36,650 bases of DNA from Nitrososphaerota archaeon (GTDB lineage: Archaea > Thermoproteota > Nitrososphaeria > Nitrososphaerales > Gagatemarchaeaceae). The position numbers were made by a program, and so were the translations under genes. Below, piece after piece: positions 3,062 through 29,480 of this stretch. The notes under the pieces are model-generated. The model was not told the origin of the DNA and did no database searches. It worked only from the letters and a program-made list of their open reading frames with translations. Position 1 is the stretch's first letter, and the number at the start of each line of letters is the position of its first letter. Location: the NCBI GenBank assembly GCA_016193005.1, contig JACPTA010000157.1, positions 1 to 36,650 of the forward strand, in the 5' to 3' direction.

Positions 3062-5341
3062 CTACTCGCACTTGCTGTATCCGCAGTTGGTGCAGCGATA
3101 GCAGCCGTTCTCAAAGATTATCGAGCTCTGCTCGCAGTCCGGGCAGGTCGACCCGGTCACCAGGTTCTGCGGCGCCTCCTTGGTCACCTTGCCCTGGACA
3201 AGTATCTCGAGCGCCTTCGAGACGGCGTCGGGGATGGATAACAGTTGTATGCCGTCGTCCCACGATACGTACTTCCCCCTAATCCCCTTGAGCATCCTTA
3301 CGACGTTCTGGATGTCGCCCCCGTGCTGGAGGTAGAGACTGATCAGCCTCCCAAGCGCCTCCGCGTCGGCCTTCTCGTCCCCTCCGAGCTTCCCGAGCGT
3401 CACGAAGACCTCCTTCAGCGAACCTCTCTCGTCAGAGTTGGCCGTCACGTACAGCCCTCCCTGGGGGAGCTTCAGCTTGAGCGTCCTGCCCGTCATCACC
3501 TTCGCCCTCTCGAACTGCTTCGACTTCTCCTTCTTCTCCACCTTGGCGGTCTCCAGAATCCCTTCTCTGCTCCCCTCCCTATAAATCGTGATGCCCTTGC
3601 ATCCGAGCTTCCACGCGAGGAAGTATATCTTCTGCACCTCTTCCACGGAGATCTCCTCGGGCAGGTTCACGGTGCTCGAGATCGCAGTGTCGATGTGCTT
3701 CTGGATCGCGGCCTGCATCTTCACCCTCATCTCAGGCTTTATCTGGTGAGCCGTCACGAAGTACGTCGGCAGGTTCTTCTCGTCGGTCACGTGGTGGACT
3801 CGCATGTAGTCTTTCACCAGCGGGTGGAAGACCTTGAACTCACCCTCGCTCAGAGACTTGCTCCTTCTTGTGTAGGACATTGCGAAGACAGGCTCGACGC
3901 CACTCGAGCTTCCAGCGAGTATGGAACCCGAACCAACGGGCGGAATCGTCGTCAGTGCGGCATTCCTGATACCCTGATTCCTGATCTTATCCCTCACCTT
4001 CACGTCAAGATTCTGGATGAAGGGCTGGGCCAGATGCTTGTCCGGGTCGAACGCAGGGAAGACTCCCTTTTCTTTCGCAAGCTCCGTCGAGTAATCGTAG
4101 ATCACGTTCACTATCCTCTCGAAGAGCTTGTCGACGAACTCCACGGTCGCCTCTTCGTCGTACTTTAGCCCGAGCTTGATCAGCATGTCACCCAACCCCG
4201 TGATGCCAACGCCTATCCTCCTGCTCCAGAGAGAGGCGGTCCTCTGCTGGGCGAGCGGGTGCTTGTCCGCGTTGTAGTCGAGGACGTTGTCGAGGAACCT
4301 CACGCCGTACTGGGTGGCCTTGACCAGATCGTCCCAGTCTACACTGCTGTGGTCGGTGAACGGCTCCTTTACGAAGTAGCTCAGGTTTACCGAGCCAAGG
4401 CAGCAGCACCCATAGTTTTCAAGAGTCTGCTCGCTGCAGGGGTTCACTCCTTGGACCTCCATGTTGTTGTACTCTGTCGTTGAATATTTCTTCATGGAGT
4501 CCCAGAAGATAACTCCAGGCTCGTCAGACTGCCACGCGGCCTTGATGAGCTGGTCCCAGATCTCTCTCGCCCTCACCTTCCTGCTGAACTCTACCTTCTC
4601 GTTCTTGAAGTGGAGCTCGAAATCACCGTCCCTCTCCACCGCCCTCATGAAATCATCGGTGACTTTGACGGAGACGTTCGCATAATTCACCCTCTTCAGG
4701 TCCTTCTTCACGTTGATGAAGTCGAAGATGTCCGGGTGGTCCACCCTGATCGTGATCATGAGCGCCCCCCTCCTCCCCTCTTGCCCGATAGTGCCGGTAG
4801 TGGTCGAGAGAAGCTCCATGAAGGAGACAGAGCCCGAGCTGTAGATCGCCGCATTATTGACTGGAGAGCCTCTCGGCCTCAGCCCCGAAATGTCGGTGCC
4901 CACCCCTCCTCCGAAGCTGTAAGTTCTTGCAGCTTCCTTGCACCAATCGAAAATTCCTTCTATGGAATCTTCCTTAATCTTGAAAAAATAGCAATTAAGT
5001 AGCGTTGCCCGTCTTGGCTGCCCCGCCCCGAACAGGATCCTTCCTCCAGGGACGAACCTGTAGTTTTCGAGGAGCCAGTGGAAATTTTCCGTCCACTCTT
5101 TCTTCTTCTCCTCCTTCTCGACCGAGGCCAGCTCGGCTGCCACTCTCTTCCACATCTGCTCGGGCTTGGTCTCCACCTTCTTGCCGGTTTTGTCCCGGAG
5201 AGCATACTTTTCGTAGAAGACCCTCGCGCGGAGTTCGTCTCCATCAAATGCGTCGAGAGTTTCTTTCGGCAGCGGTACCTCCACTACTTTCTGGAGTTTC
5301 TGGTCTCCAGTATCTGACCCTGATTCAAGTTCTGTTGTCAT
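3062..5341 (-). CDS. nrdJ: Adenosylcobalamin-dependent (class II) ribonucleotide reductase
   Basis: This 759-aa enzyme reduces ribonucleotides to deoxyribonucleotides using a radical generated from adenosylcobalamin. The ten-stranded barrel core is recognisable. Cys117 in LLNCYF is the first redox cysteine. Asn300-Pro-Cys302-Ser-Glu304 is the finger-loop signature with the thiyl-radical cysteine. Cys312-314 follows in a YGCCCLGSVNLS motif and contains the second redox cysteine. The C-terminus has a zinc-ribbon-like cysteine cluster (CPDC...CYRCTNCGY) as in many class II enzymes with a redox-active tail. I see no N-terminal ATP-cone, so dNTP control may rest on the specificity site and on transcription. 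The neighbouring upstream gene does carry an ATP-cone. The ATG at 5341 has a TATA-like box about 55 nt upstream. Confidence 0.95.
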   Translation of the reverse strand: MTTELESGSDTGDQKLQKVVEVPLPKETLDAFDGDELRARVFYEKYALRDKTGKKVETKPEQMWKRVAAELASVEKEEKKKEWTENFHWLLENYRFVPGGRILFGAGQPRRATLLNCYFFKIKEDSIEGIFDWCKEAARTYSFGGGVGTDISGLRPRGSPVNNAAIYSSGSVSFMELLSTTTGTIGQEGRRGALMITIRVDHPDIFDFINVKKDLKRVNYANVSVKVTDDFMRAVERDGDFELHFKNEKVEFSRKVRAREIWDQLIKAAWQSDEPGVIFWDSMKKYSTTEYNNMEVQGVNPCSEQTLENYGCCCLGSVNLSYFVKEPFTDHSSVDWDDLVKATQYGVRFLDNVLDYNADKHPLAQQRTASLWSRRIGVGITGLGDMLIKLGLKYDEEATVEFVDKLFERIVNVIYDYSTELAKEKGVFPAFDPDKHLAQPFIQNLDVKVRDKIRNQGIRNAALTTIPPVGSGSILAGSSSGVEPVFAMSYTRRSKSLSEGEFKVFHPLVKDYMRVHHVTDEKNLPTYFVTAHQIKPEMRVKMQAAIQKHIDTAISSTVNLPEEISVEEVQKIYFLAWKLGCKGITIYREGSREGILETAKVEKKEKSKQFERAKVMTGRTLKLKLPQGGLYVTANSDERGSLKEVFVTLGKLGGDEKADAEALGRLISLYLQHGGDIQNVVRMLKGIRGKYVSWDDGIQLLSIPDAVSKALEILVQGKVTKEAPQNLVTGSTCPDCEQSSIIFENGCYRCTNCGYSKCE

Positions 5342-5392
5342 GATTAGATATCACTTAGTAATCGTTGCGCGTCATGATACCAAACATCTTCA

Positions 5393-5401
5393 GTATTAAA
5401 G
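5393..5401 (-). promoter_or_regulatory. TATA-like box of nrdJ
   Basis: On the minus strand the segment reads ctttaatac, about 55 nt upstream of the nrdJ ATG, which predicts a 5' leader of roughly 25 nt. Two copies of TTAGTC (plus-strand 5421-5426 and 5437-5442) lie just upstream and could be an operator, though this is weak. Confidence 0.45.
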
Positions 5402-5577
5402 CACATGTCTAATTTTTTCGTTAGTCGTCTTGCATTTTAGTCAATGGAAATCAAATCGAACGAGGTAAACGTTTGCGCTGAAAACTTTCTCGCCATCACG
5501 TTGTAAATGCGGAAATGCTCCCTACCACAACCCAGCAACAGACTCGAGCTAAGGAATTCTAGCATTTTCCAAACCGA

Positions 5578-7665
5578 TTACTTCGCAGTCGAGTACTGGG
5601 CAGTGGCTGCGGACTTGCACCTCTTGCATCTTGTCGAGTCGGGCACAAGTTTTAATCCACAATTTCTGCAAACAGAGACCGTTCTGACGACTTTGAAGTA
5701 GGGAATCTTGTTGATTCCAGTCGAAAGGAGGTTGAATATCCCCCGGGTGTCAAGTGAAGCACCGTTCATCAAAACCGACATCCCGCCCTTGAGTCCGCTC
5801 GACAACCTGTTGAGGTAATCGACCTTTTCCTGATTCTGGAGGTCGCTGGTGCTCAGCACGGGGGATTGCGAGTATCCTGAACCCTGGAGGCCAGGCACAG
5901 TGGCCCTGCCATACTTCTCTGCGTCCAGCGCTGCCAGCCGGCTGGCGCCATCTTCCTCAATAATTGCAATTCCTAGGTGCTCATTCTTGCTAGATTTTTC
6001 AACTGCCACCTGGGCGGCGGTCTGGACGATCTTCTCGGCGAGCGCCGTCCTCGAGCCCGTGGAGGGGTCCCGTATGAGGCTGGCGAGGCTCTCCTCCAGC
6101 CCTGCCAGGCTGACTACGAGCGGCATGGCTTCAGATGTCACGGTCTCCGACCCGTAGCTGAGGGTGGGGAGTAGGCCTTTCTTCATCATTCTCTCCAGCA
6201 CCCTTCTCCTCGTGGTCAGGGCGTCGGCCCCTACGCCTATTAGCATGGCCAGTTTTGCCCTGAAGTACGTCTCATCTTCGTTGGAGTCGTACGCCAGCCT
6301 TGGGAGGTTCAGCGTGAGGTTGTGCAGCGCACTCACGTTGTCCCCCTGGAGTTCGTGAGGGAGGGCATCAGAGCTGATTCCCAAGAAGCTCCTCCTCTGG
6401 TCATTCGTGAAGAATGCGACCTTGCCGCCGATAAAGAGTATCGAGGCGGCATCCTTCAAGATGCCCGTCTCGTCCGCCCTGCTGGGCTTCCCCAGAAGGA
6501 GCTTGATCTCAGGCCTCGGCGTCTGCTCGACAAAGGCGCTGTAGGCCTCGAGGGTGGCCTCTAGGGTCTTCTGGACCAGATCCTTCCCTGCTTCGTCCCT
6601 GAGCGAGGGGTTGAGCTCCAGTGTGACTGTCGGCTTCTCCCATGACGGCAGGAGGGTGGAAACCACCTCGAAGAACCTCATCATGGCCTGGCGGGTCTCG
6701 TGCTTCGTCCTGGAGCGTGTGAACGCTGCGAGGTACTGGAGGAAGTTCCTGTAAACGAGCTCGGCCGAAGCCTCCTTCATGATGAAAGATGTAATGTTTG
6801 TCATTATGGTGGCAGCTTCCTCCAAATTCTGAGGTGTCTCCAGCATGGGCGCGTAGAGAAGTTTCCCCTTCGGGTTGAACCCCGAAGCTTTCACACTCAG
6901 CAGGTCAACGAATATGGTATCGGGAATGAGTCCCCACGACCCAGCGTTCGAGATGTGAATGTCACCCGCCAGATGGGCATCTGCCACGTCCCTTGGAAGC
7001 TGTTCGAGGAGCAGGTACTCCGAGAAGACAGCCTTGCCCGTCTGATGAATCAGCCCCTCGACGTCGCTGCCGTCCTCCCCTGCCCTGTTGAGTAGCTGGG
7101 TAACGTCATAGACGGGTATTCCGAGTCTCGTTAGCTTGTGCCTGTACTCCTCCAGGTTGTGTTCGACCAGTAAAGCGTTGACCATCTCCCTGATCAGGGG
7201 TGCCGTAAGGTACTGAGTCTGGAACTTGTAGAGCCTCGACTCTGTCTCGCTTGTAATCTTCTGGGCCAGCTCAACTGGCATGCCTGCCTCCTTCACCAAA
7301 GACTGCAAAATCCTGTCAGCGTTGAACTCCTCCATTGCCTGACGCGACGTTCGTACATACAACTTCCCGCTCTCGACCAGCGACTGCTCCTCGATCTGAC
7401 GCGTCAGGTTAAGAACCAATCTGCCCAAATTCGTGACGGTGTACTTTCTCTCCTGCCTATTCAGCTGGATCAGCAGCTGCCTTACCAGCTTCCGTAGATG
7501 GTAAGCAAACTTGCCAGACTCCTTCTTCGATTTGAAACCGGCCAGACTCTTGAGGGCACTGTACGTCAAGGGCCCCTTGATGTTCAGTATCTTGAGTATC
7601 TCCAGCCTCTGTGGAGACGCAATAACGCTGTAAATTGTTTTGACCCTACGAGGCGCCGCTTGCAA
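5578..7665 (-). CDS. HTH / ATP-cone / cysteine-less NrdD-like fusion, predicted nucleotide-sensing regulator
   Basis: The 695-aa protein has four parts. Residues 6-90 form an ArsR-like winged helix (SPQRLEILKILNIKGPLTYS, then a recognition helix and a YTVTNLGR wing). Residues 100-190 look like an ATP-cone. About 205-660 resemble anaerobic (class III) ribonucleotide reductase NrdD (DVADAHLAGDIHISN, LTLNLPRLAYDSNEDE, VVSLAGLEESL, IPYFKVVRTVSVC). Residues 666-683 are a CxxC...CxxC zinc ribbon. The only cysteines in the whole protein are these four, and the C-terminal glycyl-radical motif (RxxGY) is absent, so it cannot do reductase chemistry. From family knowledge, the ATP-cone binds ATP/dATP in reductases and NrdR. 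I infer a transcription factor that reads nucleotide pools and may control nrdJ, 236 nt downstream on the same strand. The start is TTG with leaderless TATA spacing. An unrelated regulatory target is possible. Confidence 0.8.
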   Translation of the reverse strand: MQAAPRRVKTIYSVIASPQRLEILKILNIKGPLTYSALKSLAGFKSKKESGKFAYHLRKLVRQLLIQLNRQERKYTVTNLGRLVLNLTRQIEEQSLVESGKLYVRTSRQAMEEFNADRILQSLVKEAGMPVELAQKITSETESRLYKFQTQYLTAPLIREMVNALLVEHNLEEYRHKLTRLGIPVYDVTQLLNRAGEDGSDVEGLIHQTGKAVFSEYLLLEQLPRDVADAHLAGDIHISNAGSWGLIPDTIFVDLLSVKASGFNPKGKLLYAPMLETPQNLEEAATIMTNITSFIMKEASAELVYRNFLQYLAAFTRSRTKHETRQAMMRFFEVVSTLLPSWEKPTVTLELNPSLRDEAGKDLVQKTLEATLEAYSAFVEQTPRPEIKLLLGKPSRADETGILKDAASILFIGGKVAFFTNDQRRSFLGISSDALPHELQGDNVSALHNLTLNLPRLAYDSNEDETYFRAKLAMLIGVGADALTTRRRVLERMMKKGLLPTLSYGSETVTSEAMPLVVSLAGLEESLASLIRDPSTGSRTALAEKIVQTAAQVAVEKSSKNEHLGIAIIEEDGASRLAALDAEKYGRATVPGLQGSGYSQSPVLSTSDLQNQEKVDYLNRLSSGLKGGMSVLMNGASLDTRGIFNLLSTGINKIPYFKVVRTVSVCRNCGLKLVPDSTRCKRCKSAATAQYSTAK

Positions 7666-7688
7666 TTGTCACAGGCTCGGGGTCAAAA

Positions 7689-7697
7689 GTATTTAAC
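7689..7697 (-). promoter_or_regulatory. TATA-like box of the NrdD-like regulator gene
   Basis: On the minus strand this reads gttaaatac, about 27 nt upstream of the TTG at 7665. That spacing predicts a leaderless transcript and supports the TTG start, which directly follows an in-frame TGA. Confidence 0.55.
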
Positions 7698-7741
7698 TAA
7701 TTGTCGAGTCTGAATCAAAGAACACGTTTCTTGAAAATGAG

Positions 7742-7881
7742 TGGGGTCGGCCGGATTTGAACCGGCGGTCTCAAGCGCTCCTGCACGAGCAATCGATTGT
7801 GCCCCAAGGCTTGAAGCCTAAACCAGACTGGCCCCACTTGGTTGAATGATTATCCAACATCATGGCCTAGCCGACGACCCC
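7742..7881 (-). tRNA. tRNA-Pro (TGG) with two introns
   Basis: The acceptor stem pairs GGGGTCG (7881-7875) perfectly with CGACCCC, followed by discriminator A (7742). The T-arm is GCCGG-TTCAAAT-CCGGC, the anticodon stem CAAGC/GCTTG and the loop CTTGGG/C with anticodon TGG. Two introns must be removed. Intron 1 (7866-7828, 39 nt) lies in the D-loop after nucleotide 15. Its BHB has central helix GGCT/GGCC, 3-nt bulges AGG and AGT, and intron helix CCAT/GTGG. Intron 2 (7802-7778, 25 nt) is at the canonical 37/38 site, with a 4-bp central helix and 3-nt bulges GGG and AGC. The spliced product is 76 nt with D-loop AGTCTGGTTTA. Read without intron 1, the gene would lack a proper acceptor and D-arm. 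A TATA-like sequence lies near 7904-7914. Confidence 0.85.
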
Positions 7882-12420: not shown

Positions 12421-12594
12421 TGGTGGGGACGGTGGGATTTCCACCCGCGGAGAGGAGATCCCCTCCATGGACTTGAACCCACGGCCTACAGGTTTCTGCA
12501 GCTCCACTGCCATATCATCCACGTCTCCGTGTCATCAAACTTTTAGTGTAGTTGCACTGGAGCCTGTCGCCATACCTGGCTAGGCTACGTCCCC
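12421..12594 (-). tRNA. tRNA-Trp (CCA) with two introns, CCA end encoded
   Basis: GGGGACG (12594-12588) pairs with CGTCCCC, followed by A73 and an encoded CCA ending at 12421. The D-arm is GCC/GGC and the anticodon stem ACAGG/CCTGT with loop CTCCAG/A, anticodon CCA. Intron 1 (12556-12494, 63 nt) is at 37/38 and contains box C-like motifs (TTGATGA at 12538-12532, TGGATGA at 12521-12515). It also has TGGAGC, which is complementary to the anticodon loop. Intron 2 (12471-12438, 34 nt) interrupts the T-loop at 59/60. Its BHB has outer helix GTGGG/CCCAC, central helix TTCA/TGGA and 3-nt bulges. Splicing gives T-loop TTCAAGT and a 74-nt tRNA plus CCA. A TATA-like cttaaaa lies near 12622-12630. Confidence 0.9.
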
Positions 12595-14684: not shown

Positions 14685-14708
14685 TACAGCAGGTTTATCG
14701 CAAGACTC

Positions 14709-14822
14709 AGCCGGCCATAGCGTACGGGTCCGACCTGGACTCATCCGAACCCAGCAGTCAAACCGTGCGTCGTCACTATGCTACTGAGCTCGGAAACGGC
14801 TCGGGAAGTAGTGATGCCGGCA
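14709..14822 (+). rRNA. 5S ribosomal RNA
   Basis: The ends pair as GCCGGC/GCCGGC (helix I). The conserved 5S core follows: ccatagcg after helix I, then the loop-B/C segment tccgaacccagcagtcaa matching the 5S consensus (CCGAACxCxGxAGUxAA). Then come loop E and helix IV, with gctcggaaacggctcggg. Length about 114 nt, slightly short for 5S; the exact ends are uncertain by a few nt. No 16S, 23S or tRNA is adjacent, so it is a solitary 5S gene, as in many archaea of the TACK group. It is followed by about 130 nt without a gene before the DUF1512 start. Confidence 0.9.
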
Positions 14823-14954
14823 CCCAACTTCTCCCGTCGGTCTATAGCATTCTCGATATCGTTGACTTGAGGAGGCAAAGGATTCCGCAACAGGATTCCA
14901 AGTCTAAAATGTTTAAGTCTAAGTGTTTTTACGGCATTTTGGAATCTGCTAGCT

Positions 14955-29159: not shown

Positions 29160-29480
29160 TCGGTGGTGGGTAGGGTCTGGAGGTTAGCCGTCTCCGTCAA
29201 CTGAAACCGGCTACACGCAGTGGCCAGTAAACCGTCGGGTAAAGCTATCTCTCCTGCTACCTGCGAGTGACTGCAGAATGATCTCACGCCGAAGTGGGTG
29301 GTCATGAGGAGCGGTCTCCTCGAAGGAGGGGTCCCGACTCTTAATCGCCGAACCGAGCGAGGTCCGGGAGGGAGCATCTCTAAGGTGACGTGGCCACGCT
29401 GCTTCGTCTACGTGGAGGACTGTAACTCGCTCGTGATTGGGGCAGGGTGGGGTAGTGAACTCCGATGGAGCCGCCACCAT
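29160..29480 (+). ncRNA. 7S signal recognition particle RNA
   Basis: The stretch has no protein-coding signal. It does contain the SRP helix 8 signature ggtccgggagggagca (29361-29376), which matches the archaeal/eukaryal GGUCCGGAAGGxAGCA consensus apart from GGGAG for GGAAG. The 5' end ggtggtgg (29162-29169) pairs with ccgccacc (29471-29478), closing a long rod as expected of archaeal SRP RNA (about 320 nt). With SRP54 and SRP19 it targets secretory proteins to the membrane. The ends are approximate. It is preceded by a TATA-like aaatata. Confidence 0.85.

Follow-up and report, generated by a model that had tools for sequence, protein, structure and literature searches.

A winged-helix and ATP-cone protein built on a catalytically inactive NrdD: a probable regulator of ribonucleotide reductase genes in Nitrososphaeria

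Introduction

What may a ribonucleotide reductase (RNR) do once its active site is gone, and what could it do beside a working reductase gene? The question is raised by the window, a stretch of 36,650 nucleotides from a genome of the archaeal order Nitrososphaerales, in which a gene encoding a winged helix, an ATP-cone and an NrdD-like body with a zinc ribbon is followed by nrdJ. The original prediction, made from the letters of the window, took the product of this fusion gene for an NrdR-like control protein derived from a dead reductase and acting on nrdJ. Our analysis supports this prediction. None of the three observations that would have overturned it was made: the body belongs to the NrdD family, orthologues show neither the glycyl-radical motif nor a catalytic cysteine, and the gene is linked to nrdJ. 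The protein is not a member of the NrdR family itself.

We consider it probable that the fusion is an autoregulated transcriptional regulator of RNR genes, which senses ATP and dATP and has evolved from an NrdD that lost catalysis. If this is true, an essential enzyme has been converted into a regulator of enzymes like itself, clearly so, and has been retained while the adjoining reductase was replaced more than once. The ammonia oxidisers belong to the class Nitrososphaeria, for which no description of the control of dNTP supply could be found in the open literature. The fusion is a concrete candidate for this role, with a defined candidate operator and a presence in almost all sampled genomes of the class.

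Results

Domain architecture of the fusion protein

The domain layout read earlier by eye, namely winged helix, ATP-cone, NrdD body and zinc ribbon, agrees in its borders with the Pfam profiles (Table 1). The gene is on the minus strand, which the original prediction left unstated. DUF7347, a domain of winged-helix type, matches with 37 bits (cut-off 27.6) at residues 11-85, and from this match the N-terminal domain is predicted to adopt the winged helix of ArsR-like regulators. HTH_20 covers residues 16-66 with 24.3 bits, just below its cut-off of 27, and ArsR-type chains are the top PDB profile matches for this domain, although these matches are weak. The ATP-cone (30.1 bits, cut-off 25.8) and NRDD (111 bits, cut-off 26) both exceed their Pfam cut-offs. 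Alignment of the fusions reveals that the stretch SKKESGKFAYHLRKL in the winged helix is almost invariant throughout the order, and that residues V104, R105, E112 and F114 of the ATP-cone are invariant. The Lys/Arg signature of the cone is altered and reads VRT in place of the usual VxKR.

In the AlphaFold model of the fusion, the body is mostly predicted with pLDDT values of 70-96, whereas the HTH and cone are of low confidence, mostly with values below 75. Class III reductases (NrdD) account for every one of the first 36 PDB fold matches of this model, with a best E-value of 4e-21. Together with the NRDD profile match (6e-32), this places the body in the NrdD family and rules out a chance likeness.

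Table 1. Features of the fusion gene and its surroundings in the window.
Feature	Position	Strand	Details
Fusion gene (HTH, ATP-cone, inactive NrdD and zinc ribbon)	5578..7665	-	695 aa, TTG start at 7665
Winged-helix domain, residues 11-85	7411..7635	-	Pfam DUF7347 4e-9, HTH_20 3e-5
ATP-cone, residues 103-174	7144..7359	-	Pfam ATP-cone 7.5e-7
NrdD-family body, residues 202-687, lacking the thiyl cysteine and the glycyl radical	5605..7062	-	Pfam NRDD 6.1e-32
Predicted C4 zinc ribbon, Cys 666, 669, 680, 683	5617..5670	-	Conserved cysteines
TATA-box-like element TTAAATAC upstream of fusion gene	7689..7696	-	
Candidate operator TTTTGAC directly downstream of TATA box	7682..7688	-	
Fusion-nrdJ intergenic region, presumed nrdJ promoter	5342..5577	-	236 nt
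nrdJ, class II (B12-dependent) ribonucleotide reductase	3062..5341	-	759 aa, without own ATP-cone

Loss of the reductase active site

As had been noticed at the outset, the protein contains no cysteines other than the four at positions 666, 669, 680 and 683, and the glycyl-radical motif RxxGY could not be found in it. Genuine NrdD carries RVxGY at the C-terminus, beyond the zinc cysteines, whereas the chain of the fusion stops 12 residues past its last cysteine. The pattern of the four cysteines is that of the C-terminal C4 zinc site of NrdD, which is thus predicted to be retained, and the finger-loop cysteine that forms the thiyl radical in class III reductases is absent. The cysteine of 'MGCRSFL' in T4 NrdD (1h78) aligns with a variable position, where the window sequence has the glutamine (NDQRRSFLG) pointed out in the original prediction, and the cysteines of 'TNCCLVDL' in the same enzyme align opposite 'DTIFVDL' of the fusion.

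This loss extends through the whole family. The catalytic cysteine columns and the radical glycine motif are lost in 71 of the 71 fusions aligned and kept in 13 of the 13 genuine archaeal NrdD. Among the orthologues examined, none ends in a glycyl-radical motif and none has cysteine in the catalytic columns of NrdD. An ordinary NrdD misread by eye is thereby ruled out, as the catalytic residues are missing family-wide. Nearly all aligned fusions that extend this far have retained the four zinc cysteines. In a set of 64 sequences, CxxC...CxxC is conserved in 62-63.

Five short fusions of 540-630 aa (loci L127, L131, L136, L152 and L155) have a clear HTH and a NrdD body eroded to the edge of detection; in L131 Pfam barely detects the body. 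These members look as if the regulator sheds its reductase part.

Distribution and constraint

The fusion was found in 194 of the 199 good genomes of the class and in 52 of the 53 genera sampled in it, many of the sampled genomes being metagenome-assembled. Orthologues with open frames and 36-74% identity are present in 55 of the 61 relatives' genomes, and a genome-wide NRDD search of all 61 returned one clearly genuine NrdD. The open frames and the strong conservation across the sampled genera rule out a recent pseudogene. Other classes of the phylum have fusions with the same domain order too, which are about 540-790 aa long and likewise devoid of catalytic residues. Two paralogous fusions per genome, differing in the erosion of the body, were seen in G238 (L117 and L118) and G351 (L134 and L135).

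Constraint is distributed very unequally along the protein. Within the order, the mean pairwise identity is 0.77 for the HTH, 0.68 for the ATP-cone and 0.34 for the body, and the former finger-loop stretch (residues 391-443) is the least conserved part of all with 0.22. Genuine NrdD is least conserved in its cone (0.27), with a mean identity of 0.30-0.39 in the body. Judged from these alignments, selection has shifted away from the active site towards those parts of the fusion that are predicted to bind DNA and nucleotides. In a quick tree, genuine NrdD forms one side of a fully supported branch, which makes a single origin of the dead branch possible; finer placement is unsure because of the long branches among the short fusion members.

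Neighbouring reductase genes

The nrdJ gene of the window (NrdJ_Z, 542 bits, cut-off 400) lies downstream of the fusion gene on the same strand, with the gap that had been predicted (Table 1). The predicted co-occurrence holds in the order: a same-strand nrdJ follows the fusion immediately in 65 of the 65 distinct loci with room to judge. At least three nrdJ architectures occupy this place. NrdJ has TSCPD and no ATP-cone in the window and L059, whereas L075 encodes one with an ATP-cone and L065 one of the Ribonuc_red_2_N type. A sole role of the fusion in compensating for a NrdJ without ATP-cone is ruled out by its presence beside the cone-bearing NrdJ of L075. Four genomes of the order were without the fusion in the class scan, two of which were also without a nrdJ match, while in a third nrdJ fills a 3.3-kb contig. 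In G042 (locus L170), a near-complete genome of the order, an ATP-cone nrdJ is present in full context and no fusion was detected.

Outside the order, the arrangement is more variable. Within the class, a sister group has nrdJ convergent to the fusion (L172-L174). Many genomes of other classes have no reductase gene adjoining the fusion; in five (L102, L109-L112), the first reductase gene met downstream is a genuine nrdD, while nrdJ lies downstream in one (L101) and dcd in two (L121, L137). The pyrB gene, encoding aspartate carbamoyltransferase, is convergent and immediately adjacent to the fusion in many of these genomes, including L100, L103 and L104; the same arrangement was seen at L106, L108, L113, L116 and other loci. 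A small glutaredoxin-like frame (CxxC, by eye) is located between the dead fusion and genuine nrdD in L109, L111 and L112, which makes the locus look like a complete nrd operon. The partner reductase has changed in type and in class while the fusion stayed.

Candidate operator and promoters

A common DNA word, TTTGAC or GTCAAA, is enriched on both sides of the fusion gene. It occurs in 25 of 50 non-redundant regions before the gene (50%; Fisher p 5e-12) and in 27 of 48 that separate the fusion from nrdJ (56%; Fisher p 3e-14). In the remaining upstream regions of these loci, which served as control, it occurs in 20 of 275 (7%). The p-values are too small because the counts use related genomes. 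Dinucleotide shuffles agree with the enrichment; the background for the motif comprised the loci of relatives and one genome pattern search.

Before the fusion gene, the motif typically begins 9 bases past the start of a TATA-like TTAAATA and about 26 bases before the start codon. The 15-mer TTAAATANTTTTGAC, which combines TATA box and motif, is found once in the window's genome with at most one mismatch, at 7696..7682, and in the window's family patterns of this type lie mostly at the fusion promoter. Such near-uniqueness speaks against a wide regulon governed through precisely this site. A repressor bound at such a place would block initiation, and from this position of the candidate operator repression seems more plausible than activation.

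The fusion-nrdJ intergenic regions of relatives are rich in TGTCAAA/TTTGACA. An exact copy of the motif was not found in the nrdJ promoter of the window, which has a weaker ATTGACT near 5440-5445. Three convergent-nrdJ promoters of the sister group carry TGTCAA or GTCAAA, as does one nrdJ not linked to a fusion; two other unlinked nrdJ genes are without it. A search of the candidate operator for regular dyad symmetry gave sporadic inverted or everted pairs only, and before fusions or nrdD of distant classes the motif of the order appears in scattered copies only.

Nearby RNA features

A tRNA-like stretch, ending in CCGGTTCAAATCCGGCCGACCCCA, is present on the minus strand at 7740-7860, just upstream of the fusion gene, and a part of it, CCGGTTCAAATCCGG, is found again in the upstream region of about 14 of 62 relatives. 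Neither ARAGORN nor the Rfam gathering threshold gave a call for this stretch, perhaps because of an intron. A Rfam tRNA match on the minus strand at 12424-12594, with no ARAGORN call, is spread across 171 bases and therefore probably represents an intron-containing tRNA. Rfam further locates an archaeal SRP RNA at 29164-29479 and a 5S rRNA at 14707-14825.

Discussion

Proposed function and alternative explanations

In the proposed mechanism, a winged helix would have been joined to an ATP-cone-bearing NrdD, with catalysis lost since. The ATP-cone most likely senses ATP versus dATP, as suggested by the behaviour of ATP-cones in RNRs and in NrdR (PMC11226230, PMC12176259). The inert reductase body may provide the scaffold of a dimer and perhaps, at its old specificity site, a second sensor of dNTPs; dimerisation and dNTP binding by the body are a guess drawn by analogy with NrdD. 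In one nucleotide state, the winged helices would bind TTTTGACA-type sites, which lie in the nrdJ promoter and, at the regulator's own gene, behind the TATA box and ahead of the transcript start. Binding would most likely block transcription when dATP is high.

A broader form of this proposal is more tentative, and we regard it as possible rather than probable. Across the phylum, a dead reductase with two sensors, the ATP-cone for ATP/dATP and the old specificity site for other dNTPs, would switch whichever RNR class is present, acting in the window's order through the TTTTGACA operator. The transcription factor would then descend from a relative of the very enzyme that it controls.

Regulation could also take place at the protein level, with the dead reductase docking on NrdJ (or NrdD) and its ATP-cone acting as an on/off switch of the enzyme. 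In that case the winged helix would serve protein contact or autoregulation only. The NrdJ of the window is without an ATP-cone, homologous subunits could hetero-oligomerise, and the strict linkage of fusion and nrdJ (65 of 65) is consistent with such a partnership. However, the fusion is kept beside a NrdJ with its own ATP-cone (L075), also stands beside class III NrdD and is unlinked in some genomes. The winged helix is its most conserved part, and a common DNA word precedes both the fusion gene and nrdJ, which makes action by docking unlikely. The fusion could also be a transcription factor for a wider nucleotide regulon, or for another signal, with nrdJ as one target or a mere neighbour. 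In other classes it is often found without an adjoining reductase gene, and its neighbours there include the nucleotide genes pyrB and dcd, but within the order it is strictly linked to whichever nrdJ type is present, and we hold a regulator of this wider kind to be quite improbable.

It is very doubtful that the fusion is still an enzyme, be it a reductase whose radical route is altered or a protein with another nucleotide activity. The NrdD fold and zinc ribbon are kept and the patches NLPR, DETYFRA and LDxEKYG are conserved; nevertheless, the window protein has no cysteine outside the zinc ribbon and no radical glycine motif, conservation is lowest in the former finger loop, and short members such as L131 show still stronger erosion of the body. 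A transcriptional regulator of RNR genes is hence the explanation that we prefer.

Comparison with known systems

Archaeal NrdD and NrdJ and the rare archaeal NrdR are covered in RNRdb and the RNR evolution papers (PMC2795772, PMC3019208), and the sections of these sources considered here describe no inactive HTH-fused NrdD. An archaeal HTH/ATP-cone or dead-NrdD regulator was likewise not found in the openly accessible literature.

The fusion combines features of three known families. With the ArsR/HTH_20-type regulators (DUF7347) it shares the predicted N-terminal DNA-binding fold, but these regulators stand alone, whereas the helix of the fusion is joined to an ATP-cone and a reductase remnant. 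NrdD (PF13597, TIGR02487) shows the same arrangement, in which the reductase barrel comes after an ATP-cone and a C4 zinc site lies at the C-terminus; the fusion differs from it by the extra N-terminal winged helix and by the loss of the thiyl cysteines and the glycyl radical, and scores 97 bits against the NCBIfam NrdD equivalog (cut-off 326).

NrdR (TIGR00244), the RNR repressor of bacteria, resembles the fusion in its ATP-cone, zinc ribbon and presumed DNA binding, with RNR promoters as the presumed target. Binding of NrdR to its boxes at RNR promoters depends on ATP and dATP; for the fusion, a common candidate operator was detected before its own gene and before nrdJ. In contrast to the fusion, it is about 150 aa long, binds DNA by an N-terminal zinc ribbon and has neither a winged helix nor a reductase body. 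The fusion protein gives no match to TIGR00244, and NrdR above the cut-off of this profile was detected in none of the 61 relatives' genomes, NrdR being reported as rare in archaea (PMC9110341, PMC12176259). NrdR occurs with different RNR classes (PMC9110341, PMC12176259), as does the fusion. By analogy, the fusion may work like NrdR while standing outside the NrdR family.
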